64,000 bases of DNA, from positions 29,778 to 93,777 of IMG/VR virus record IMGVR_UViG_3300028569_000021; one strand, 5' to 3'. Shown in pieces: positions 26,036-59,402 of this stretch (its first letter is position 1; every line of letters begins with the position of its first letter). The translations under genes were made by a program, and so were the position numbers. The notes below the pieces were generated by a model, which saw only the letters and a program-made list of their open reading frames with translations, was not told the origin of the DNA and ran no database searches. Origin of the DNA: a virus.

Positions 26036-26043
26036 TATTTATA
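26036..26043 (-). promoter_or_regulatory. T4-like late promoter, exact TATAAATA
   Basis: Exact TATAAATA on the minus strand, 5 bases before the ATG at 26030. It matches the consensus used by gp55-type sigma factors. Transcription would begin at about the ATG itself. Confidence 0.7.
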
Positions 26044-29277: not shown

Positions 29278-29718
29278 GGGGGTGTACTGGTTTTCGATTT
29301 ATAATTGAAACCTAAGAGTGCATGCAGAGGTTAATCGATGGCCTCTATAAAAATCGATTAAAAACCTAAATGCAGAGGATAATACTTCTGATCTTTTAGC
29401 TGAAGCTGAATACATCATCAATCACGCTGACGAGTTTCTCGTTGGTTGTGAAGATGAGTACGAACTCGCAGCCTAAAAGCCTAATAGAGGATCCTCTAAA
29501 TCTATTTTGAAACGCAGAGGTTTTGATGAACTGTTAGAGATCATAGAAAAACTAATACAGAGGGAACATACGACCTGATCACGTATGTAGGCAGACTTTA
29601 AAAGATGGTCGATGAGCCAAGACAGCCTTTAGTCAAAAAATGTCAAATTCATCTAAGCATGTAGTACCTTTTAGAAGATATTGTAAAGACAGGGGTTCGA
29701 ATCCCCTCACCTCCACCA
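29278..29718 (+). ncRNA. ssrA: tmRNA (ssrA), one-piece, with an unusually long tag
   Basis: The 441-base RNA rescues stalled ribosomes and tags their products. The 5' GGGGGTG pairs with 3' CACCTCC, then A and an encoded CCA. The 5' part reads TACTGGTTTTCGA, as in bacterial tmRNA, and the 3' T arm has GGGGTTCGAATCCCC. The tag frame starts at GCA 29372 (base 95 of the RNA, close to the usual place) and ends at TAA 29474-29476. It encodes 34 residues, starting AEDNTSDLLA and ending EDEYELAA. Most known tags have about 10 residues. The YxLAA end is the classic protease signal. Confidence 0.92.
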
Positions 29719-29722
29719 ATTT

Positions 29723-29812
29723 GGAACGATGGCTGAGCGGCCGAAGGCAGAGCTTTGCTAAAGCTCCGAGGACTAAAAACCTCCGAAGGTTCAAATCCTT
29801 CTCGTTCCGCCA
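29723..29812 (+). tRNA. tRNA-Ser (GCU)
   Basis: Acceptor GGAACGA pairs with TCGTTCC, discriminator G, and CCA is encoded. The anticodon stem GAGCT/AGCTC encloses TTGCTAA, giving anticodon GCU for AGC/AGU codons. A long variable arm (CGAGGACTAAAAACCTCCG) is typical of serine tRNAs. It lies 4 bases after the tmRNA, probably on the same transcript, and is followed by a T-rich run. Confidence 0.95.
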
Positions 29813-29862: not shown

Positions 29863-31059
29863 ATGGCCTTACAGACTATTGAATATTTAAAATCAAAATT
29901 CGAAACAGGAGATTTACCTGATCAAAACGATTTTCAGGATTTAATAGATAGCTGTTATAATTTAACTCAGTCGGACTTATCTCTTTTAATTATAACTATT
30001 GTTGAAAATATTACAATAAATTCAAGAAATGTTTTTTACGACAATACAGCAGGTATTGATAATATTATAGTAGGTCAGAACGTACAAGATGCAATAACTC
30101 AGTTATCCTTTATGGTTAAGGAATTAAACAACGTTGTTTTTCCTTCTCCTACGCCAACCCCTACCCCTAGTATTACACCAACTTTAACACCTTCTGTAAC
30201 CCCTTCAGAGACCCCTTCAGAGACCCCTTCTGTGACTCCTACAGTAACTCCGACACCGACACCTACAGAAACACCTAGCTTAACTCCCTCTAAAACACCA
30301 TCTGTAACTCCTTCAGAAACGCCTAGCTTAACTCCCTCTAAAACACCATCTGTAACTCCCTCCAAAACGCCATCTGTAACTCCTAGCTTAACTCCCACAA
30401 TTACACCATCAAATCCAACTCCTTTTTCTTTAGTATGGGATAATTTCTCTACACTACCTACTTTCTCTTATACTGATACCGGTAGTATTGAAGTTATTAA
30501 TAACTCTACACAAATATTGTTGAGACCTAAAAGCGCGCTATTGACATTTGAAAGTAGTTATAATACTGCAAATGGAGATGTTAACTTTTCGAGCTGCTCT
30601 AATCTAACATTTTTAAGACTTAAAGATAACGGTATTTCTAGTTTAAATGTTTACAATTGTACATCTTTAGATATCTTAGACTGTTCTACTAATAATCTCT
30701 TATCTCTTGATATTATATCATGCTCCGTTTTAACAGATCTTGATGCAAGTGGAAATCAATTAAATACAGTAACGCTTAGTGGGCTTACTCTTTTAAATAC
30801 AGTTAATTTAGAAGGAAATAACATAAGTTCTTTAAATGTTACTAATGATGTAAACCTAAGTTCAATTAATATAGGCTATTGTAACTTTAATATTTCCGAT
30901 TTAGATACTTTATTTAATAATTTACAGGATCGTACAAGCTCTACATCTGGTAATATTGATATATATTCCAATCCCGGTACTAGTGGTGCTAATTCTTTAA
31001 TAGCAGAAGGAAAAAACTGGGTAGTTAACAAGATTGGCCCATTAAATGCTCAAGTCTGA
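29863..31059 (+). CDS. Fibre-like protein: Pro/Thr/Ser repeat stalk plus leucine-rich repeat domain
   Basis: 398 residues. The start ([20 protein letters not shown]) resembles the attachment ends of T4-like fibre proteins. Residues about 94-187 are a PTPTP/TPSxTPS repeat stalk. Residues about 200-395 carry an LRR-like solenoid ([45 protein letters not shown]). It could present a binding domain on a flexible stalk. A TTAAATA sequence precedes the ATG. It sits just upstream of the lysis genes. Adhesion is inferred. Confidence 0.65.
30142..30423 (+). repeat. Low-complexity Pro/Thr/Ser coding repeat
   Basis: Imperfect tandem units encode TPS(V/L/E/K)TP. One block of about 60 bases, beginning ACACCTAGCTTAACTCCCTC, is repeated almost exactly, a sign of recent expansion. 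The antisense frame is open only because of the repeat. Confidence 0.8.
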
Positions 31060-42866: not shown

Positions 42867-43496
42867 TTAGGTAGAAAAAATATCTAAAAAGCCACTTTTA
42901 ATTTTATCCAAAGCACCTACAATACTAAAATCTTCTTCTTCTGGCTTTAAATTATTAACTGCTGCATAATCTGCCTTTTTAAAGTCTGCTGGTGACATAG
43001 CAGGTGAACCTTGCCCTGTAAATGATCCACCTGCTAACAGTGTACCGCTACCGGTTGCTTGCTTATAAAAAGAAGAAACATACTGAGGCCATTGAGCATT
43101 GGTACCCTTAGGGTCGTTTGATGCTCCAGGGGGAGCGTACTTTGCCCCTATTTCAGGTATTGTATTTAGCCCTTGATTGATATACCCGCTTTTTAAAAAT
43201 CTTGCTTGATCAAAAATACTACTTTTAACATTACTATAATATTTATGGGTTTTGGTTTTTGGATCCCAAACTCCTCCTACACTATTATTTCTTTTAAAGG
43301 AGCTAGATGTACCTCTACCTGTCTCGAGCATAGCTATAGAAGCAGTAAGATAAGGATCTATATTATATTCTACACCTGCAGCAACAAAATCAGCAGCGTA
43401 CGGTTTAAGACCTCCTTGTAAAAAAGTTTGTAAATCTCTTACTACCTTTTCTTTGTCTAGAATATTTTCGTAAATATATTGCTTAAATGATTGCAC
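42867..43496 (-). CDS. Peptidoglycan hydrolase, glucosaminidase (GH73-like), with packaging-type leader
   Basis: 209 residues from a GTG start. Leader MQSFKQYIYE (Glu10). The enzyme domain reads AAGVEYNIDPYLTASIAMLETGRGTS in its core (helix with the likely catalytic Glu), then SFKRNNSVGGVW and FLKSGYINQGL, as in FlgJ/GH73 domains. It ends with SIVGALDKIKSGFLDIF, shared with the next gene. CTAAATAAATAA precedes the GTG. Probably virion-borne and acting on entry. Confidence 0.75.
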   Translation of the reverse strand: MQSFKQYIYENILDKEKVVRDLQTFLQGGLKPYAADFVAAGVEYNIDPYLTASIAMLETGRGTSSSFKRNNSVGGVWDPKTKTHKYYSNVKSSIFDQARFLKSGYINQGLNTIPEIGAKYAPPGASNDPKGTNAQWPQYVSSFYKQATGSGTLLAGGSFTGQGSPAMSPADFKKADYAAVNNLKPEEEDFSIVGALDKIKSGFLDIFST

Positions 43497-43510: not shown

Positions 43511-44152
43511 TTAAGCGCCAAAAATATCACTTATACCAGTCTTTATAGCATTCAATGCTCCTTGTATTGAGTCAGAGCTTGACTCAACATCACTACCCCC
43601 GGGGGTAGTACTTGAACCTACCCCGTCAATAGCTGCTTCTGGTTCTTCTTGTTCTTCAGGTGAACCTTGAGTAGAAGGTGGCGCAACTGAACCATCACCC
43701 ATAACTTTTTGCTTTCCACTATACTCTGCTACATTACCTGTATAATCAAAATGATGTCTCTCGTTAGTAGAATTTAATTGTTTAAACCCATATTTACCGC
43801 CGTTTTTTACAAACCACTCCCAAGACTCATCTTTAGTTAAATCAATAGATAATCCAAACCCGTGATTAGATCTACCAGGTCTAGCAGCTTGACCAGCTCC
43901 ATACTGTCTAAAAATCATATTCTGCTGGTCAATATTACGATACGAACTATTAGGGCCTGCTAGTGTTAGGGGTTTACCTACACTAGCCTGGCAATCTCTT
44001 TGAGCTCTTTCGAAAGCTGCAGCTGCAGAACCAACTAACTTATTACCCTGCCTATCAATAGGTCTCATTAAATTGTCAGGTACTTGACCGTTAACAATTT
44101 TATTTGAATCTAGTTGAGTAACTTCGTTTAAAAAGGCCTTAAAGGTAATCAC
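43511..44152 (-). CDS. Peptidase M15-like (D-Ala-D-Ala type) with packaging-type leader
   Basis: 213 residues from a GTG start. Leader MITFKAFLNE (Glu10). The catalytic region has SNHGFGLSIDL (zinc His and Asp) and a later RHHFDY (second zinc His). It cuts peptide cross-links in peptidoglycan. The tail SIQGALNAIKTGISDIF resembles that of the glucosaminidase next to it, so the two lysins may dock on the same virion site. Confidence 0.8.
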   Translation of the reverse strand: MITFKAFLNEVTQLDSNKIVNGQVPDNLMRPIDRQGNKLVGSAAAAFERAQRDCQASVGKPLTLAGPNSSYRNIDQQNMIFRQYGAGQAARPGRSNHGFGLSIDLTKDESWEWFVKNGGKYGFKQLNSTNERHHFDYTGNVAEYSGKQKVMGDGSVAPPSTQGSPEEQEEPEAAIDGVGSSTTPGGSDVESSSDSIQGALNAIKTGISDIFGA

Positions 44153-49900: not shown

Positions 49901-49908
49901 TATTTATA
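49901..49908 (-). promoter_or_regulatory. T4-like late promoter, exact TATAAATA
   Basis: Exact TATAAATA on the minus strand, 6 bases before the ATG at 49894; it lies in the 3' end of the upstream gene. Confidence 0.7.
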
Positions 49909-51529
49909 ATTCATCAAGCAAGTCATCAAAGGTAGATACTACGCTTTTATCCATATCTTGTGTATATATTTCTTTTTGCTTATATTTTTTAATAGCATCC
50001 ATAGTGATATTATCATCAGATGGTAAAACATATTGTTTAGCATTTGGTAACCCCTTTAAAGATTTTACCGGGTTATCTGTAAAAGAAAAATAATTACCTG
50101 CATCTTTTAAAGATCCTTCAAAATTTTCTAAATTATTATAACTAACGTTTACGTGATCTTTTACCTTTTCCGGAAAATTATTTAAGCTTGTTAAATCTAA
50201 AAATCTTAACTCTAATATATCCATCTCTTTAGGTAAACCTACAACACTATTGACATGTACGTTATAAATTTCTAAAGATCTTAATTTTGGAGGTAAGAAT
50301 GTTAAATCTTGAATTACTCTTTTTGATTTACTAGCAGCCGTGTGTTGAATAGTCCAATTTGAGTCTTTCTTAGGTTGAATACATAAATAGTGTACCGTGT
50401 CCGGAATGTTAATATTAGTAATAATAGAATTATAACTATTATTTAAATGATATTTATATTTAGCGCTAGGATGGGAAAAATCGCAGTCTTTAAACCATTT
50501 TTCGTTAATATCGCTTACGTTGACCTCGTTATGTGCATATTTAAAGTTATTCTTTATTTCTATGCTTGGGTTAATAATCTTAAACAACTTTTCTGGGGTA
50601 GGGTTGTTTATTATATCAATTATTTCACTTGTATATTTAATAATAGAAGCTTCTGATAAATTTTTAGGTGTTAGGGTTAAGAACTTGGGAGTAAAAACTG
50701 CACCTAAAGTATTAGCTGTATCATCATAATTTATTATTCCTGTAACTTCTTCATACATATAATTTTTGTATGGAAAATAGATTGCATAAGGAGAAACGGC
50801 ATTATTATAAAATAGACTGTTTTGTAAATTACTAGGCTTAAAAGCTTCTGTGTAAGTTAAATTTTTAAGTTTTTTAGTTATAGAGTTATTAAATCTTACA
50901 ATTATATAATTAGTTTTTATTAAATTAATTACTTCTGGGTCCTGTTGGTCTAATAAATCTGGTATATGACTTATTTTTAACCCGACCATATTTGGTGTCA
51001 TATCCTTAATAGGTTTTACTGCTAAGACGGTTGTTGTTACTTTACCATCTTTTGTAAAGAGTTGTAATGGTGTAGGTAACCAATTAAAACCGAGTGGTGA
51101 ATCGCAGAAGACATCTACAATCCTTTTTTCCATTCTTTCATTATTTTGTAGAGGTCCATCGTACGAGTCCTTGCTTCCTGGTTTTACTAAATCAGCCGCA
51201 TTAATAGTAAGGTTAGGATCTTTACTATATTTTTCTGCTACTTTAACATCTTTAAAGGGCCCATAAAGAAAGTGACCATGAATACCGTGTATACTTTTAT
51301 CAGAAAAGAACTCTACAGCAAACTTGGAATAAGATCCAGGTATATTCTTATACGCAACTACTCTACCGATTTGGTTTATGTAAGGTAGAGTTTTTTTAGG
51401 TTGATATACGAGCCATTTACCGTTATCTCTTACAACTACAATATCGTCTATTTGAAATTTTGCGCGCAGAGGTGAGTCATAAAAATCTTTATAAACAGAT
51501 TCAATAAAAAAATCTTTAAATATTTGCAT
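49904..51529 (-). CDS. LRR-containing protein with packaging leader and shared C-terminal tag
   Basis: 541 residues. Leader MQIFKDFFIE (Glu10). The N-terminal half is beta-rich (FQIDDIVVVRDNGKWLVY). From about residue 410 there is an LRR-like solenoid: LPPKLRSLEIYNVHVNSVVG, LPKEMDILELRFLDL and VNVSYNNLENFEGS. It ends VVSTFDDLLDEL, the C-terminal tag shared with the 55-59 kb proteins. TTAAATA lies 10 bases before the ATG. The architecture recalls secreted LRR effectors; function unknown. Confidence 0.6.
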   Translation of the reverse strand: MQIFKDFFIESVYKDFYDSPLRAKFQIDDIVVVRDNGKWLVYQPKKTLPYINQIGRVVAYKNIPGSYSKFAVEFFSDKSIHGIHGHFLYGPFKDVKVAEKYSKDPNLTINAADLVKPGSKDSYDGPLQNNERMEKRIVDVFCDSPLGFNWLPTPLQLFTKDGKVTTTVLAVKPIKDMTPNMVGLKISHIPDLLDQQDPEVINLIKTNYIIVRFNNSITKKLKNLTYTEAFKPSNLQNSLFYNNAVSPYAIYFPYKNYMYEEVTGIINYDDTANTLGAVFTPKFLTLTPKNLSEASIIKYTSEIIDIINNPTPEKLFKIINPSIEIKNNFKYAHNEVNVSDINEKWFKDCDFSHPSAKYKYHLNNSYNSIITNINIPDTVHYLCIQPKKDSNWTIQHTAASKSKRVIQDLTFLPPKLRSLEIYNVHVNSVVGLPKEMDILELRFLDLTSLNNFPEKVKDHVNVSYNNLENFEGSLKDAGNYFSFTDNPVKSLKGLPNAKQYVLPSDDNITMDAIKKYKQKEIYTQDMDKSVVSTFDDLLDEL

Positions 51530-51556
51530 GTTTGATAAGTATTTAAGTAATTAATT

Positions 51557-53050
51557 ATGTATTTAAAGCAAGAAGAGTCAAATATTTTTTCACGCTATGT
51601 CTCGTTATTAAAAGAACAGAATGCAGCTCCACCTGCTGATGAATCTAATAAACTAGAGGACCCAGAATATTTTAGAATGTTTGAGAATAGATTATTGGCT
51701 AGTATCAATCATCTTTATAAAAATCATAGATTTTATGGCATAACATTGAGAAAGTTAAAGACAGTACCGACTTTAACTGTGCCTACCATGGCTGTAGATG
51801 ATTATAATAATATATTCATTAACCCTAATTTCCTTATAGATGAGTTATCTATAGAAGAAGCGGCAGGTGTATTGGCTCATGAATGCTTGCATATAATAGG
51901 TAAGCATCTGTTTAGACTTGGTAATAGAGATATGTCCTTATGGAACTGGGCTACTGATTTTATTATTAATATGAACTGCTTGCAGGATGGAATGGCTCTT
52001 CCTAAGTTAGGTCTCATACCTCAACAAGACCCTAGTGGTAGGTGGCACGCTAAGGTAAAGGGTAAGAAGGGTGATCTAGATATTGATATTACAGATTTAA
52101 TTCCAGAAGAACTTTACGATATATTAAATGCTAATGCTGAAAAGATAGACCAAAATGGTATGAATCAACAGCAACAGGAGATGGACGAACATATTAATGA
52201 TCAAACAGGAAGACCTCAAATACCTAACAATGCAAGTGATAACGATAGCTATAAAGCAGATGGTCCTAGTGGTGGAGGTAAGTCTAAATCGGCCGGTGAA
52301 AAAGAAGCCCAAGCAGAAGATATAAAAAAGAAATCAATAGGAGAAACTAAAAAGGATCAAAGTAGAGGAATGGGTGGAAGTTTACCTAGAATGATTTCTA
52401 AAGAAGAAGAGACTCCTAGAGTTAATTGGAGACAAATTTTAAAAAGATATTTAAAGGTAAGTGCCTCATCTTATGAAACTTACATGAGACCTAGTAGAAG
52501 AGGTTTAGCGAGAGGAATAATTCAAAAAGGAGAAAGAAGTATTCCTGATAAAGTTGATGTAGTAGTGGCTTGTGATACTAGTGGCTCTATAACTCCTGAA
52601 ATTTTGAATCTTTATACAACAGAAATTATGTCAATTTCTAAAGCGTATAAAAGCGTTTCTATTCTTTTAATTCTATGGACAACAGAAGTTTATTTTGCTG
52701 CAAAAATAGAAAAAGGTACTATAGAACCTATCTATTCTGCTGTAGCGGGTAAAAAAGAAAATATAAATAATAAAACAATAACAATTGCTAATATACCCTA
52801 TAAAGGAGGTGGTACAATATTATCTAGCGTTCATAAGTGGTTTAATGACAACCGTGCGATTGCGGTAACTAAAGCAAAATTATTAATAGTATTTACTGAC
52901 GGTCATGTTGAAGACCAACCTGTATTTCCTAAGCAATTTAATAAGAGGAATACAATTTTTATGGTTAATGATCCTCAATCTGGTGGTATAGATGATATAG
53001 TTAAAAAATATGGTACTGCCATTTATGTAAAAGTTGGTAAATACACATAA
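51557..53050 (+). CDS. Metallopeptidase-like plus VWA domain protein (DUF2201-like) with leader
   Basis: 497 residues. Long-type leader ends LLKE (Glu20). Residues about 50-150 form a putative metallopeptidase: AAGVLAHECLHIIGKH contains HExxH, followed by WNWATDFIINMNC. A charged linker (about 205-285) leads to a VWA domain with a metal-site motif DTSGSI and a late FTDGHVED. The next gene is a MoxR-type ATPase. Such pairs act as ATP-driven protein remodelling or metal-insertion machines in bacteria; the target here is unknown. Confidence 0.75.
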   Translation: MYLKQEESNIFSRYVSLLKEQNAAPPADESNKLEDPEYFRMFENRLLASINHLYKNHRFYGITLRKLKTVPTLTVPTMAVDDYNNIFINPNFLIDELSIEEAAGVLAHECLHIIGKHLFRLGNRDMSLWNWATDFIINMNCLQDGMALPKLGLIPQQDPSGRWHAKVKGKKGDLDIDITDLIPEELYDILNANAEKIDQNGMNQQQQEMDEHINDQTGRPQIPNNASDNDSYKADGPSGGGKSKSAGEKEAQAEDIKKKSIGETKKDQSRGMGGSLPRMISKEEETPRVNWRQILKRYLKVSASSYETYMRPSRRGLARGIIQKGERSIPDKVDVVVACDTSGSITPEILNLYTTEIMSISKAYKSVSILLILWTTEVYFAAKIEKGTIEPIYSAVAGKKENINNKTITIANIPYKGGGTILSSVHKWFNDNRAIAVTKAKLLIVFTDGHVEDQPVFPKQFNKRNTIFMVNDPQSGGIDDIVKKYGTAIYVKVGKYT

Positions 53051-53053
53051 ATA
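53046..53053 (+). promoter_or_regulatory. T4-like late promoter box
   Basis: CATAAATA overlapping the stop of the VWA gene, 6 bases before the ATG at 53060. Confidence 0.6.
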
Positions 53054-53059
53054 AAAAGT

Positions 53060-54682
53060 ATGAAGTTTTTTAACTCTAGTAAAGATGATTTGTTTGATGC
53101 CTATAAGAGTGTTTATATAAAAGAAGCTGTTAACCCTAAGCCAGCACTGCAAAGTGTTCAACCAAAAAAGAAAGCTCCTGCAGTTATAGCGCCTGCACCA
53201 GTTCCTTTCTCTGGTGGTAAAGTAGGTAAACCAGCACAGCAACCTCAAGCTGCAGATGAGATACCATCTGATCCAACACCTGATATAGAAGCAGAAGATA
53301 TTATTAATAAAGCTGCTCCTATGGTTAATGCTATTAATCAAGGTGAAGATTTAGACCTAGAAGACATTTTAAATCAAACAGGTGGCGTTGATGACGTCAA
53401 TTTACCTACTTACAAAGATACAGATTTACCTGAATGGGACTATGAAGATGTAGAACCATTAGTACAAAGATCTTACGACCTTAAAGAACCAATTTTGATA
53501 TATGGTTCTGCTGGTATTGGTAAATCTACTATAATTGAAGATTTTGGTAGAGACATTGCTGCTGCTTCTACAGGTAGAATTTATAAGAACTGGGATGATA
53601 CATCATATCAGGAAAAAGAAGAGATGATGTATCATCCAGAAAAGTACTTTGGAATGGTTAAGATTCTGCCTAACAAGTATACTCCAGAAGATATTCTCGG
53701 TGTACCTAAAGTAATGAATCAAAAAGAATGGCTTGTTACAGATAAATTTATGTGGATTGAATATTTGTCGCGTCCAGGTGCTGCTGGTATTCTATTCCTT
53801 GACGAGCTCAATACTGCTTCAGCGAGAATGCTTTATAGTTTATATGAAGTGGTTCTAGATAAAGCAGCTGCGGGTACGAAATTTGCTCCTGATGTTGCAA
53901 TTATGGCTGCAGGTAACTTAGAAAACGAGCTTAACCCAAACTTAGAGCCACTACCCCAACCTTTAGTAGATAGATTTACAAGCGGTGTGTTAGTAGCTGA
54001 CGTTGACAAATGGGTTGAGTTAGCTAAAAAATGGAAAGTTGATAGAAGAATATTGACGTTTGTTCTTTCTAATCCTAAAGATAATTTTTATGCTGAGCCA
54101 ATTACCGGTGGTGGTGGATCTCCAACACCTAGATCATTAGTGAAGTTTTCTAATATGCTTAAGCATATATATAAAGATTATAGTGATAAGATTAAATCAG
54201 GTGCACTTATTAAGAAACCTATTCTCAGACAAATTGGTAAAGCAGCTGCAGGTAAACTGGGTACTAAATGGGCTAAAAACTTTGTTGAATTTTTAGCTTA
54301 TAGTAGATCATTTAATTTTGCAGACCTCATTAAGGACGCAGCAAATCTTAATAAGAGAAAGAAAGCCGAGATTAGCGCCTTACAATTGTATTTGCTAGGT
54401 AGAGCAGAATGGGCCACAAAACAATTAATAGGCGTCCCGCAAGAAGCCATTAACGATCCTAATGTTAAGGAAGTTATGGAAGGTATTCTTACTGTCTCAA
54501 ATGCTCTTGACAATAATTGGAATATTAACTTATGGGTAATGTTCAAGAAGGATATGGCACCTGAACTGTTTAAATCATTAATGGTATATACTGTTCAAGG
54601 CGATTATAACCCTACAGTGAAAGCTGCAATGGTTGTAAAGATGAAGAAAATTGGTAAAATCTTAAAAGGAGAAACAGAATGA
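53060..54682 (+). CDS. MoxR-type AAA+ ATPase with packaging-type leader
   Basis: 540 residues. Long-type leader ends YIKE (Glu22), then a Pro/Ala/Lys linker to about 125. ATPase core: Walker A GSAGIGKST near 150, Walker B ILFLDELNTAS, sensor 1 in AIMAAGNLENEL with RF arginine (QPLVDRF), and sensor 2 in PTPRSLVKF. Partner of the metallopeptidase-VWA protein directly upstream. It overlaps the next gene by 4 bases, which has a good ribosome site (AAAAGGAG). Confidence 0.85.
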   Translation: MKFFNSSKDDLFDAYKSVYIKEAVNPKPALQSVQPKKKAPAVIAPAPVPFSGGKVGKPAQQPQAADEIPSDPTPDIEAEDIINKAAPMVNAINQGEDLDLEDILNQTGGVDDVNLPTYKDTDLPEWDYEDVEPLVQRSYDLKEPILIYGSAGIGKSTIIEDFGRDIAAASTGRIYKNWDDTSYQEKEEMMYHPEKYFGMVKILPNKYTPEDILGVPKVMNQKEWLVTDKFMWIEYLSRPGAAGILFLDELNTASARMLYSLYEVVLDKAAAGTKFAPDVAIMAAGNLENELNPNLEPLPQPLVDRFTSGVLVADVDKWVELAKKWKVDRRILTFVLSNPKDNFYAEPITGGGGSPTPRSLVKFSNMLKHIYKDYSDKIKSGALIKKPILRQIGKAAAGKLGTKWAKNFVEFLAYSRSFNFADLIKDAANLNKRKKAEISALQLYLLGRAEWATKQLIGVPQEAINDPNVKEVMEGILTVSNALDNNWNINLWVMFKKDMAPELFKSLMVYTVQGDYNPTVKAAMVVKMKKIGKILKGETE

Positions 54683-55173
54683 CAAAACAAATTAAAGAAG
54701 CAAAGAAATTAGCAGCAGATTATTTTTATAGAAAAAGAAAGTTAACAGAAAAGGAAAGATTCCTTGTAGAGAGCTCTCCCTTTGGATATGTTCTTAAACC
54801 TGCTGAAACTGCTACAAAATTTAATAAAATTTTAGAACAGTATGGTATGGACAATGGTGTAATTGATCTTATGGATGTACCGGAAGGTCTTCCTAGAAGA
54901 AAGCCAAACTATACACCCTGGATTAAAAAGCATTACGTTAAAGAATTGCTTGATCAAATTGAAGAAAAATTTAACGTTGGTATGTATAATGTAGGGGTGG
55001 GTAAATATAAAAATATCGATTGTGATATTTTAAAGCAATTTATACATAATTTTGTTGTAAGAAATAGAATACAAAGCGGTAGCCAAGATACAGCAGAAGA
55101 GCTTTTAGACATTGCTAATAACTGCGGTGACGTTTACAAAGTAATGTATAAGCTTTATTTTCTAGCAAAATAA
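54679..55173 (+). CDS. Hypothetical protein in the VWA/MoxR operon
   Basis: 164 residues, helical and basic: KKLAADYFYRKRKLTEKERF, then PNYTPWIKKHYVKELLDQIE. No leader. Coupled to the ATPase by an ATGA overlap and preceded by AAAAGGAG. It may be an adaptor or substrate of the ATPase pair; no family is recognised. Confidence 0.65.
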   Translation: MTKQIKEAKKLAADYFYRKRKLTEKERFLVESSPFGYVLKPAETATKFNKILEQYGMDNGVIDLMDVPEGLPRRKPNYTPWIKKHYVKELLDQIEEKFNVGMYNVGVGKYKNIDCDILKQFIHNFVVRNRIQSGSQDTAEELLDIANNCGDVYKVMYKLYFLAK

Positions 55174-55179
55174 AGCAAA

Positions 55180-55707
55180 ATGCGAGAGCTGATAGATAAG
55201 TTAGTAAGTGATATTGTTTTAAATAAAAAAGAACAATCTTTTGTTAAGACTATGGCTTCAAGTCTTGTTAAAACAAAGCTTTTAAATAATAGTCATTTTT
55301 ATGAAACTTTGTTTTTAATTAAAAGATTCTTTAATGCACCTAAAGTTGGTATTAGAGTTGTAGATGACCTACAGTGGGTAAGAATGGGCCCTGAGTGTAA
55401 GTCAATATTTGAAAAATATAATTATAAGTATCATTATCGTTATGATGGAGAGTCAATGGAAGACATATTTGCCATATTTAAAAAGTTTTGTATTAACCAT
55501 GGAGCAGATATAAAAGCAGGTATAAGTCCTGAAAACGATAAAAAATTACAAATTCCTTTACAGATGGCAGAAGAGCTTTTTAATCTTGCTTTTAGAGAGA
55601 CTCTTGCTAGACACAAAAATGATCCTACAATTAAAGAATACTTAATAATGAGAGATATACCTGAAGATGTGGATGATGTTTTCGGGGATTTAACTTCTGC
55701 GTTATAA
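55180..55707 (+). CDS. Hypothetical protein with FGDL-type C-terminal tag
   Basis: 175 residues. No leader, but the end, EDVDDVFGDLTSAL, matches the C-terminal tag of the 56.4-59.4 kb proteins. The body is helical with basic aromatic stretches (YNYKYHYRYDGESMEDIF). It lies 6 bases after the previous gene, the last member of the VWA/MoxR unit, and links that unit to the tag-bearing set. Confidence 0.6.
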   Translation: MRELIDKLVSDIVLNKKEQSFVKTMASSLVKTKLLNNSHFYETLFLIKRFFNAPKVGIRVVDDLQWVRMGPECKSIFEKYNYKYHYRYDGESMEDIFAIFKKFCINHGADIKAGISPENDKKLQIPLQMAEELFNLAFRETLARHKNDPTIKEYLIMRDIPEDVDDVFGDLTSAL

Positions 55708-56411: not shown

Positions 56412-56936
56412 TTAAAGTTCATTTAAGATATCTCTAAATGTATTAGAAACTTCTTTATCTGCTTTATCTAGACCATAAACTTCATTCTCTCTATATTTTT
56501 TATAAGCAATAACATCTTTCTCCACTACATGACCTGGTGTAAAATAATATACAGTATCTAGAAGTACTTTTTGTATTTTAAGTTTTACTTTTTTAATAGC
56601 ATTTTCTTCGTTTTCTTCATCAATATTTTGCTGATTTGATAACTCATCATTTAGGATACTATTAATTGTATAATTAAGAGAGCGTACATGTGTAAAGATA
56701 TTAACAAATGTATCTAGCATCTTACCTCTACCGTGTAAAACAGGTTTAAGTATTTCGACAACAAGACGAATAATAACTAAATTAATTTCTTGCAATAGTC
56801 TTGGCCTATCATTATTCATTTTATTATATATTACTATACATTCTTTTGCAGATTTTGTTATTATGTCATCCTCTCTTTGGGTGAGAGTCTCTCTAATATT
56901 ATTCTCTAATAAGTACCTGACCTTCTGATAAAACAT
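56412..56936 (-). CDS. Hypothetical protein with packaging leader and shared C-terminal tag
   Basis: 174 residues. Leader MFYQKVRYLLE (Glu11) and C-terminal tag VSNTFRDILNEL. The body is all helical (INLVIIRLVVEILKPVLHG, AIKKVKLKIQKVLLDTVYYF). It has the same overall plan as the plus-strand cassette at 57.1-59.4 kb but lies on the opposite strand. Function unknown. Confidence 0.6.
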   Translation of the reverse strand: MFYQKVRYLLENNIRETLTQREDDIITKSAKECIVIYNKMNNDRPRLLQEINLVIIRLVVEILKPVLHGRGKMLDTFVNIFTHVRSLNYTINSILNDELSNQQNIDEENEENAIKKVKLKIQKVLLDTVYYFTPGHVVEKDVIAYKKYRENEVYGLDKADKEVSNTFRDILNEL

Positions 56937-56947
56937 TAAAAGTATTT

Positions 56948-56971
56948 AATAGCTGTAAGCCACTCGTCAGC
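56948..56971 (+). repeat. 24-bp repeat, left copy
   Basis: 22 of 24 bases match 59517-59540. The two copies flank the five-gene cassette in the same orientation. On the minus strand this copy reads YVKKTADEWLTAI, a possible remnant of a gene end. Confidence 0.7.
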
Positions 56972-57015
56972 TGTTTTTTTAACATAAATAAATTAAAAGA
57001 ATAAAGATGTTCTAA

Positions 57016-57078
57016 TGTATTGTTTGGCGTGATCAAAAAGCATCAGATACCTTTGGAGATTTGTATAATGAATTATGA
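57016..57078 (+). pseudogene. 3' remnant of a lost cassette gene
   Basis: After a TAA at 57013-57015 the frame reads CIVWRDQKAS and then DTFGDLYNEL followed by TGA. The last ten residues match the C-terminal tag of the genes downstream. No start is present. The TGA overlaps the ATG of the next gene, the same junction used within the cassette, so this is most likely the end of a deleted paralogue. Confidence 0.7.
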
Positions 57079-57515
57079 TAAAGAGAAGCTTTAAAAAATA
57101 CATGACAGAAAACGGACCGGAAGTTATAGAAAAGAATTTCTATATTGAAGGTGAGGAAGATCCTACCTTGCAATATATTATAAGAGTACCTCTAAAAGTA
57201 AAAGAAGATGGACAGATAGAAGTTTTAGATAACCTGCGCAGGAGGACGGAAATTTTTTATCTCAAAACAACAAAGGATGTAAAGAGTACGAAAGATACAA
57301 GTTATAAGACTGTATATAATATAGGATATTTAAATTATACATTTAAAAAAGGCATTTCGATAGGACAAAACTATGATAGGTATAATCTAAGGCCTGTAAT
57401 AGACTTTTTCTTTAAACTTGCGCCTACAGCTGTGAGAGAGTATAATACAGATATTATATTTGCTTCAGAAAAAGAAACACAAGATATTTTTGGAGATTTA
57501 TTTAACGAAGTATGA
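57075..57515 (+). CDS. Cassette protein A (leader plus C-terminal tag)
   Basis: 146 residues. Leader ends YMTE (Glu12); tag TQDIFGDLFNEV. The body is beta-rich and shares VIEKNFYIEGEEDPTLQYII with the same region of the next protein (KNFYVGDDEPNLQYHI), so A and B are paralogues. The start ATG lies inside the remnant's last codons; the stop overlaps the next ATG. Function unknown. Confidence 0.65.
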   Translation: MIKRSFKKYMTENGPEVIEKNFYIEGEEDPTLQYIIRVPLKVKEDGQIEVLDNLRRRTEIFYLKTTKDVKSTKDTSYKTVYNIGYLNYTFKKGISIGQNYDRYNLRPVIDFFFKLAPTAVREYNTDIIFASEKETQDIFGDLFNEV

Positions 57516-57982
57516 AACCGTTTAAAACATTTATATTGGAAAATAAAAAAACTAGCTCTCTTGAGATAATGAGCAAGAATTTTTATGTCGGTGATGATGA
57601 ACCTAATCTTCAATACCATATCGAATTAAGCTCTATTCATAATTTTGTAATATATGTACCTCTGATAGTTAATGATAAAGAAAATATATCTGTTAAGACG
57701 AGCCTTAGTAATAGTATCGATTTTTGGTATAGGTTGCCAAGTCAACAGGGACCTAATGATGCATTAAGATGGAAAATATATGCTCGTGGTAAAAAAGATC
57801 TTAAAAGCCTTATATATTATACAAATAGTGGGGTAACATTAAATAAAAAAGAGAAGGAAATATTATCTAATTTTTATAAAGATATAATTGATGGTAATAT
57901 TAAAGAGTATAATGATAAGATTAACTTTGGAGATGATGAGGATGTAAAAAATACGTTTGGAGATATTTACAATGAACTTTGA
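57512..57982 (+). CDS. Cassette protein B (leader plus C-terminal tag)
   Basis: 156 residues. Leader MKPFKTFILE (Glu10); tag DVKNTFGDIYNEL. Paralogue of A by the KNFYVGDDEPNLQYHIELS region and VPLIVND. The bases coding NEL-stop also contain the ATG of the next gene in another frame. Function unknown. Confidence 0.65.
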   Translation: MKPFKTFILENKKTSSLEIMSKNFYVGDDEPNLQYHIELSSIHNFVIYVPLIVNDKENISVKTSLSNSIDFWYRLPSQQGPNDALRWKIYARGKKDLKSLIYYTNSGVTLNKKEKEILSNFYKDIIDGNIKEYNDKINFGDDEDVKNTFGDIYNEL

Positions 57983-58439
57983 TAAATTAATAGATATAAT
58001 ATTAGAAAATAATAGAGGTTATGTAATAATAAATAAAGAGTTAATTGCTAACAATTGGGATAAATATGACGATCCTCAAATTAGATTTGAGCTAGAGATA
58101 GATGGAGTATACCACGAGTGTTATTTTCCTTTAGATTATAAAGATGTAAAGTTTAATACCTTAAAAGTAGAAACAAAAAAGTGGGATTTTGCGTTATGGC
58201 GAAAAGATAAAATAACTAAAAAAGTTAACTTGATAGGTAGTATCGTTAAGCCATCAGAGGATAAAGAAGAGATGATGCTTAAATTAGCTAAAAGTAAACT
58301 TGATAAAAAGCACAAAGAAATAATGGCAGATTTATTAGATATAGCGTTTCAAATGCTGGAAGACCATAATAACGAGCAAATGACAAATGGTAAAAGTGAA
58401 GTATATGATGTGTTTAAGGATACATTTGATGAATTATAA
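57972..58439 (+). CDS. Cassette protein C (leader plus C-terminal tag)
   Basis: 155 residues from ATG 57972; the frame is open a little further, to 57957, but the internal ATG gives the leader MNFDKLIDIILE (Glu12). Tag VYDVFKDTFDEL. The body differs from A and B: strands (FELEIDGVYHECYFPLDY) then a long Lys/Leu helix. Function unknown. Confidence 0.65.
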   Translation: MNFDKLIDIILENNRGYVIINKELIANNWDKYDDPQIRFELEIDGVYHECYFPLDYKDVKFNTLKVETKKWDFALWRKDKITKKVNLIGSIVKPSEDKEEMMLKLAKSKLDKKHKEIMADLLDIAFQMLEDHNNEQMTNGKSEVYDVFKDTFDEL

Positions 58440-58441
58440 TT

Positions 58442-58927
58442 ATGTTTTATAAAAAAATAAATAGTATATTAGAGGAAGCTGCTACAAGGCCTCCTTTTGA
58501 AATGTTATTGGAAGGTAAGACGGTACAGGAGAACTATACAGCTATATCACCATTAGATTACTCTGATGTGGTAATAAGAGTAAGACACGGTGATGAGCGT
58601 AAATTAATGTTCTTTGAAAGATATAAAGTCACCAGCGATAAGAAGGAAAACTTAAAGTATATTAAAGATGAGTTAGTACCTAAGTTACCAGAAGGTGTTG
58701 ATGCACAGTGGGAAAAACATTACTTAGTTTACGGAATGGAAATAATGGTCAGGTATAGTGTATACAATGATGATGGGTTTTATCAAAGATGTGTATATAT
58801 AGTAAAGTATCCTAAGACTTGGAGTTCAGAATTATGGAAGGATGACCTCTTTGAAGCTTACTTGAAACCTACAAACTTAACAGGTGATGTTAAGGATGTA
58901 TTTGGAGATGTATATGGTGAACTTTAA
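58442..58927 (+). CDS. Cassette protein D (leader plus C-terminal tag)
   Basis: 161 residues. Leader MFYKKINSILE (Glu11), continuing EAATRPPFEML, coded by the same 44 bases as in protein E. Tag DVKDVFGDVYGEL. The body is beta-rich with VVIRVRHGDERKLMFFERY. It starts 2 bases after C. Function unknown. Confidence 0.65.
   Translation: MFYKKINSILEEAATRPPFEMLLEGKTVQENYTAISPLDYSDVVIRVRHGDERKLMFFERYKVTSDKKENLKYIKDELVPKLPEGVDAQWEKHYLVYGMEIMVRYSVYNDDGFYQRCVYIVKYPKTWSSELWKDDLFEAYLKPTNLTGDVKDVFGDVYGEL
58465..58508 (+). repeat. 44-bp exact direct repeat (second copy 58943-58986)
   Basis: The stretch beginning TATATTAGAGGAAGCTGCTA is identical in genes D and E, 478 bases apart. It codes the end of the leader and the next residues. 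The flanking bodies differ, so the leader region was copied or recombined separately from the body. Confidence 0.9.
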
Positions 58928-59402
58928 TAAAACCGTAAAGTATATATTAGAGGAAGCTGCTACAAGGCCTCCTTTTGAAATGTTATCGGAATTAAACTAT
59001 TCTAGTATTTTACTACTACAAAATAAACAGCATTATATAGGAAGAAATGCGTTTGGAAAAGTTTTTGATATTAAAAAAGGTAAGTTGTTTTATGGGCCTA
59101 GATCTAGAGCTAATGGCATGATACTCATTAAAGGACGTAATGAATGGATAAAAAATATTAAAAAGAACTGGCGTAAGGGACATATTGTAGGGGGAGGTGA
59201 ACTAAGAAGATACTTAGATTCTGCGTCTAGAGAAAAAGTTATAAATGATGATGATATAAAATATGTTGTTAACGATTTAAGTATACTTCCTAAGTTTACA
59301 ACACTATTTACTGGTAAGTTAGTTTATCTTGAACCAACAGATTGGGAACAAGCACCACAAGAAGTAAAGAATGTATTTACGGATATGTTCGAAGAGATGT
59401 AA
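58914..59402 (+). CDS. Cassette protein E (leader plus C-terminal tag)
   Basis: 162 residues from ATG 58914, inside the tag codons of D; the frame is open from 58884, but only the later start gives the leader (MVNFNKTVKYILE, Glu13). The segment EEAATRPPFEML repeats that of D. Tag VKNVFTDMFEEM. The body has basic GRNAFGKVFDIKKGKLFYGP and differs from D. Function unknown. Confidence 0.65.
   Translation: MVNFNKTVKYILEEAATRPPFEMLSELNYSSILLLQNKQHYIGRNAFGKVFDIKKGKLFYGPRSRANGMILIKGRNEWIKNIKKNWRKGHIVGGGELRRYLDSASREKVINDDDIKYVVNDLSILPKFTTLFTGKLVYLEPTDWEQAPQEVKNVFTDMFEEM

Follow-up and report, generated by a model that had tools for sequence, protein, structure and literature searches.

The locus at positions 51557–55707 raises the question of why a phage should place leader-like N-termini on both members of a metallopeptidase-VWA/MoxR ATPase pair, and of where such a machine would act. 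The window, meaning the whole stretch of 64,000 nt analysed here, comprises positions 29778–93777 of a 93.8-kb linear IMG/VR phage fragment, and all four ORFs of the locus were found at the coordinates given below. The fragment carries T4-superfamily markers (baseplate wedge gp6, gp25-like proteins, sheath and tube proteins and a gp17-type terminase), by which sequences the phage is assigned to the T4 superfamily. Its terminase is 43–66% identical to that of 14 uncultured IMG/VR relatives and at most 38% identical to those of isolates such as Pseudoalteromonas phage XG4. Neither the gp21 head protease nor the gp23 capsid protein was found in the 93.8-kb fragment, and the S77/gp21 protease was detected in none of the seven partial relatives searched; as a positive control, the same search recovered it from the isolates Cr30 and XG4, whose terminases are similar. 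Because the protease is present in these two isolates, yet was not found in the seven partial relatives, we can only infer it for the phage of the window. A search of 14 fragments from terminase relatives recovered neither the VWA nor the MoxR protein, an absence which is uninformative because the fragments are partial. Elsewhere in the window, a phage-borne tmRNA gene (tag EAEYIINHADEFLVGCEDEYELAA; 29278–29718, plus strand) adjoins a tRNA-Ser gene (29723–29812, plus strand), and a long antisense open frame with GV(L/T)xGV repeats (30099–30398, minus strand) lies opposite the phage gene at 29863–31059, probably as a by-product of the repetitive coding strand.

The first gene of the operon (51557..53050, plus strand) encodes a DUF2201-type metallopeptidase-VWA protein of 497 aa, with matches to PF13203 (E = 6e-28; 98.5 bits against a cut-off of 23.2) and phrog_1314 (E = 4e-65), while PF09967 scored 26.3 bits, slightly below its own cut-off of 26.4. 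The original prediction had placed an HExxH motif and a VWA metal site in this one protein, and both were located: the zinc-site motif HExxHxxxxH reads HECLHIIGKH at aa 108–117 (51878..51907, plus strand), and the VWA MIDAS reads DTSGS at aa 340–344 (52574..52588, plus strand), with D340, S342, S344, T420 and D448 forming invariant columns. The AF2 model has a mean pLDDT of 70, reaching about 85–90 in the peptidase region, with low confidence over the first 25 residues, and Foldseek matched it to PDB VWA folds at E of about 2e-4. We rejected "HNH endonuclease", the PHROG annotation of phrog_1314, on account of the HExxH and VWA motifs, no HNH domain being reported. Conservation of the HExxH motif, which had been proposed as a check, was borne out without exception in IMG/VR homologues with the peptidase part inside the locus. 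The third zinc-ligand His is replaced by Thr in L041 and L126, the closest homologues found, and caution is therefore advisable, as peptidase activity may not be constant. In the L041 phage (L122:2442-4491) and at L126:2304-4683, peptidase and VWA are two coupled genes, and a KOW/SH3-like segment ends the peptidase ORF.

The second gene (53060..54682, plus strand) encodes a MoxR-type AAA+ ATPase of 540 aa, matching phrog_1297 from aa 126 onwards (E = 3e-45). Its AAA+ core is complete, as had been predicted, with Walker A (GSAGIGKS, aa 149–156; 53504..53527, plus strand), Walker B (ILFLDELN, aa 244–251; 53789..53812, plus strand), sensor-1 N286, Arg finger R305 and sensor-2 R358, and in the alignments the Walker A/B, sensor and Arg-finger columns are conserved across homologues. 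Identification of the two genes as a MoxR/VWA remodelling pair was likewise upheld by phrog_1297 and phrog_1314 and by the intact motifs.

By these sequence matches the pair belongs to a known and widespread phage family (phrog_1314 with phrog_1297; COG3864 with COG0714). With the VWA protein as tblastn query, 378 phage records passed E<1e-5, spanning Schitoviridae, Vequintavirinae and jumbo phages. Single-protein IMG/VR scans with the VWA protein and with MoxR returned no relatives and two broad alignments yielded no conserved stretch usable as a search query. MoxR precedes VWA in 53 of 57 loci and VWA comes first in four; in the window VWA is first. Aligned isolate-phage homologues of both proteins start at the domain, and across about 74 IMG/VR loci nearly all proteins start at the domain or no more than a few dozen residues from it. 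The extra N-terminal residues in the window number about 125 for MoxR and about 45 for VWA. MoxR of L041 and of L126 is about 33–36% identical to that of the window (149/418 and 129/393 aligned residues); the two count as a single independent comparison, since they are 77% identical to each other (410/532). The arrangement is kept in both related phages, which share with the window the VWA-before-MoxR order, the leaders and the gene that follows (gene X), but have the peptidase/VWA gene split. The tree joins the window and L041 in one clade (support 100/99), whose sister is L042/L043, VWA-first yet leaderless (93/96). Another extended MoxR (L094) is placed elsewhere on a long branch, and a faecal scaffold (L010) has a MoxR without a leader among bacterial-looking genes.

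Both proteins had been predicted to carry leaders ending in hydrophobic-x-Glu, and both endings are present, although the profile score is high for MoxR and weak for VWA. The putative capsid-targeting propeptide of the VWA protein, MYLKQEESNIFSRYVSLLKE (51557..51616, plus strand), ends ...SLLKE|Q at residue 20, and that of MoxR, MKFFNSSKDDLFDAYKSVYIKE (53060..53125, plus strand), ends ...VYIKE|A at residue 22 and is followed by a Pro/Ala-rich linker. A two-block profile was built from the leaders of other genes, both in this phage and in its relatives, with internal protein segments as controls. The held-out MoxR leader outscored 1,908 of 1,908 control segments (p about 5e-4), while the VWA leaders gave p = 0.005 in L041 and p = 0.04 in the window, the latter weak by itself; all three figures are only indicative, because the training leaders were picked by eye. 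A profile built from six short cassette leaders detected neither the VWA nor the MoxR leader.

Whether homologues share the leaders depends on how far one looks: they are found in the nearest clade, together with gene order and late promoters, but most wider homologues are without them, and the VWA leader was not present in seven phage-isolate homologues. The peptidase leaders are MYLRREDKGLFDVYQQVKTGKRKIVLE|S in L041 and MFRKKDDQLLEEAYQRVRSGRKTLTE|A in L126, those of MoxR are MSNLKKKRIVE|A and MYKLKKRLLE|A, respectively, and for both proteins in all three phages the ends read [LIV]xE|A/S/Q. The T4 gp21 site is (L/I)-X-E and the T4 capsid targeting sequence (CTS) is 10–19 residues long (PMC9026906). 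The leader ends fit this rule except that of the L041 VWA, where P3 is Val; in length, some leaders slightly exceed the T4 CTS, at 20–27 residues. Many unrelated late genes, in this phage and in its relatives alike, encode similar N-termini. The leaders of the pair are likely to be capsid-targeting, and they are new in comparison with the known family members. Two cell-wall enzymes of the window, a glucosaminidase (PF01832) and a VanY-type peptidase (PF02557) at 42867–43496 and 43511–44152 (minus strand), have the short leaders MQSFKQYIYE and MITFKAFLNE and a common C-terminal helix ending DIF(G/S)(A/T).

Late promoters are TATAAATA in T4 and NATAAATA in cyanophages, TAAATA being the T4-type core (PMC2984593). 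In the phage studied here the core precedes sheath, tube, TerL and gp25-like genes, and 37 copies in the record lie 10–19 nt upstream of genes, compared with about 0–5 per 10-nt bin farther upstream. Of 24 leadered genes, 16 have the core in front, compared with 20 of the remaining 99 (Fisher's test, P = 2e-5, for a leadered set picked by eye). A simple tally of TATAAATA across the window falls short of chance (9 versus 18.3 expected); the only informative feature is placement with respect to start codons. A T4-type late promoter, CATAAATA (53046..53053, plus strand), precedes the MoxR gene and overlaps the VWA stop codon. Before the VWA gene is the late-promoter-like TTTAAGTA (51542..51549, plus strand), whose variant core TAAGTA, 13 nt before the ATG, is weaker than TAAATA; the same variant, one base off, is also found 11–12 nt before the leadered genes at L004:15058 and window position 43511. 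Perfect late cores lie 12–17 nt before both the peptidase gene and MoxR in L041 and L126. In the first homologue set (74 MoxR and 57 VWA genes) L041 is the sole exception, with a late core before 0 of the other 73 MoxR and 0 of the other 56 VWA genes, so that late promoters, leaders and reversed order co-occur in one clade. It is therefore very probable that the pair is expressed late. Across the record, just 11–13 nt separate the late core from the start codon, and a Shine-Dalgarno sequence is usually lacking (e.g., at 26043, 27216, 49908, and 53046), an arrangement which implies nearly leaderless late mRNAs.

The pair had been described as followed by two coupled genes, the last bearing an FGDL tag, and this was confirmed. 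Gene X (54679..55173, plus strand), which overlaps MoxR by 4 nt, encodes a helical protein of 164 aa with ...RFLVE|S in its N-terminal region, and a gap of 6 nt separates it from an ORF for a protein of 175 aa (55180..55707, plus strand) with the C-terminus DVFGDLTSAL, of which FGDLTSAL is the last 8-mer. Homologues of gene X follow MoxR in L041 (33% identity, E = 2.5e-12) and in L126, and LxE|S is conserved in the N-terminal region in all three; its AF2 model (pLDDT 70) gave no PDB match. Neither the L041 nor the L126 record contains a homologue of the tagged protein. A divergent neighbour (49904..51529, minus strand) has the leader MQIFKDFFIE|S, the tag TFDDLLDEL and a late core.

The tag, F-x-D-(L/I/V/M/T)-x-x-(E/A)-(L/M/V), ends eight proteins of this phage, VFGDLYNEL-like in form and including those at 49904–51529, 55180–55707, and 56412–59402, and the 8-mer pattern occurs at 0 of 28,986 internal positions in the proteins of this phage. 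The L041 fragment lacks it. A relaxed form was found at one of 1,662 genes in other loci (0.33 expected overall), namely AFDELLNEL on the gene adjoining the operon in L126, which is suggestive at best of a link with the machine; BLASTP did not support homology between that gene and the one at 49904–51529. A connection of the tag with the MoxR/VWA machine is possible; the original proposal that the machine loads or processes the tagged proteins drew no support. The idea that the tag is a second gp21 cleavage site was set aside, as most tags do not match L/I-x-E. A truncated ORF ending ...KASDTFGDLYNEL* directly before 57075 suggests cassette duplication and decay.

Jumbo-phage pairs (PMC7824862) and that of Schitoviridae SP058 (COG0714 with COG3864) agree in both domain architectures, conserve HExxH and MIDAS, and lie in adjacent or near-adjacent genes, whereas the window has VWA before MoxR, leaders and late promoters on both, and the conserved gene X next. 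The T4 internal head proteins IPI-III and Alt (PMC9026906, PMC3012670) offer a parallel in their short N-terminal propeptide ending (L/I)-x-E and in the diversity of cargo behind a common leader; the cargo here differs in being a two-component ATPase-peptidase machine, putatively packaged and cleaved, in a fragment where gp21 was not found. The archaeal virus ATV likewise encodes a MoxR protein with a VWA partner: the ATPase p618, a binding partner of the VWA protein, ranks among the major components of the virion, and p618/p892 function in tail development (PMC4124505). By analogy, p618 is a precedent for a packaged MoxR. However, the ATV pair has no metallopeptidase domain (PMC7824862), belongs to an unrelated virus and works in extracellular tail growth, and no cleavable leader is reported for it in the literature consulted.

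From all this we infer packaging, cleavage, ejection and a target for the machine, and on balance we favour a late operon whose products, bearing CTS-like leaders, would be packaged and then most likely ejected. The VWA/metallopeptidase, MoxR and X genes would form a late-expressed operon of a T4-superfamily phage, in which a hexameric MoxR ring would be joined by a VWA adaptor bearing a zinc-peptidase domain. Both core proteins would have gained T4 CTS-like N-terminal propeptides in this lineage. Late synthesis of the pair, with entry into the prohead by means of these leaders, is the most likely course; the leaders would dock both proteins on the prohead core, and a gp21-type prohead protease could then cut after hydrophobic-x-Glu and leave the machine inside the head. 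Packaging is probable. T4 Alt and the internal proteins are ejected into the host. The machine may, in like manner, enter the next host with the DNA, a step that we consider not quite an even prospect, and there carry out ATP-driven remodelling, and possibly cleavage, of a target early in infection, the MoxR ring supplying force, the VWA metal site binding the target and the zinc peptidase cutting. Against this reading are the failure to find gp21 or gp23 in the fragment, the weak VWA leader, the TAAGTA variant and the position of the MoxR core over the VWA stop; moreover, a MoxR hexamer would be large for the tail tube unless ejected unfolded.

The main rival to ejection is an assembly role, in which a late chaperone-protease, tethered by its leaders to the prohead core, would fold or process head or tail proteins and would not be ejected as a host-acting agent, although it may exit at maturation. 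Iyer et al. (2021) proposed virion assembly and peptidolytic processing for the unleadered jumbo-phage pairs by analogy with ATV (PMC7824862), and the tail function of p618/p892 (PMC4124505) and the late promoters are compatible with such a role. Yet chaperones of this kind have no need of cleavable leaders, and the pairs in other phages sit among replication or early-type genes and are without T4-type late promoters, though other late promoters may serve there; we regard this role as rather unlikely. It is still less probable that the machine is late but cytoplasmic, its N-termini being chance amphipathic helices or inter-subunit docking helices. The p value of the VWA leader alone, its low confidence in the AF2 model and the failure of the cassette-trained profile would agree with this, but like leaders on so many unrelated late genes, and the hydrophobic-x-Glu ends retained in L041 and L126, argue for packaging signals.

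A phage-borne MoxR-vWA-VMAP system for conflict or defence appears very improbable; the original prediction had noted that similar pairs occur in conflict systems. The ternary systems (PMC7159879) share the coupling of MoxR and vWA, and weak sub-threshold Pfam matches to bpMoxR and VMAP-M4 were seen; however, the latter reached 14.1 bits against a cut-off of 27, PADLOC matched none of the four genes, VMAP and effector genes are lacking, and phrog_1314/1297 are by far the better-fitting families. Of the ATP-driven packaged machine first proposed, the remodelling pair and its T4-CTS-like leaders find support, and there is evidence for late promoters; a conflict role and the loading or processing of tagged proteins do not find support.

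The family itself was already known; its leadered, late-expressed form is new. MoxR/VWA-metallopeptidase pairs occur in hundreds of phages, and no demonstrated function was found in the literature searched. Those members whose N-termini resemble leaders and whose genes have late promoters provide a direct clue, pointing to head assembly or injection. Tentatively, by placing leaders and late promoters on both subunits, this lineage may have converted an intracellular phage ATPase-peptidase machine into a virion-delivered AAA+ protease-type machine. If the pair is packaged, the known cargo of T4-type capsid targeting, small inhibitors and single enzymes, would be widened to include a multi-subunit ATP-driven protease machine, and packaging could move the timing of such a machine to the first moments of infection.
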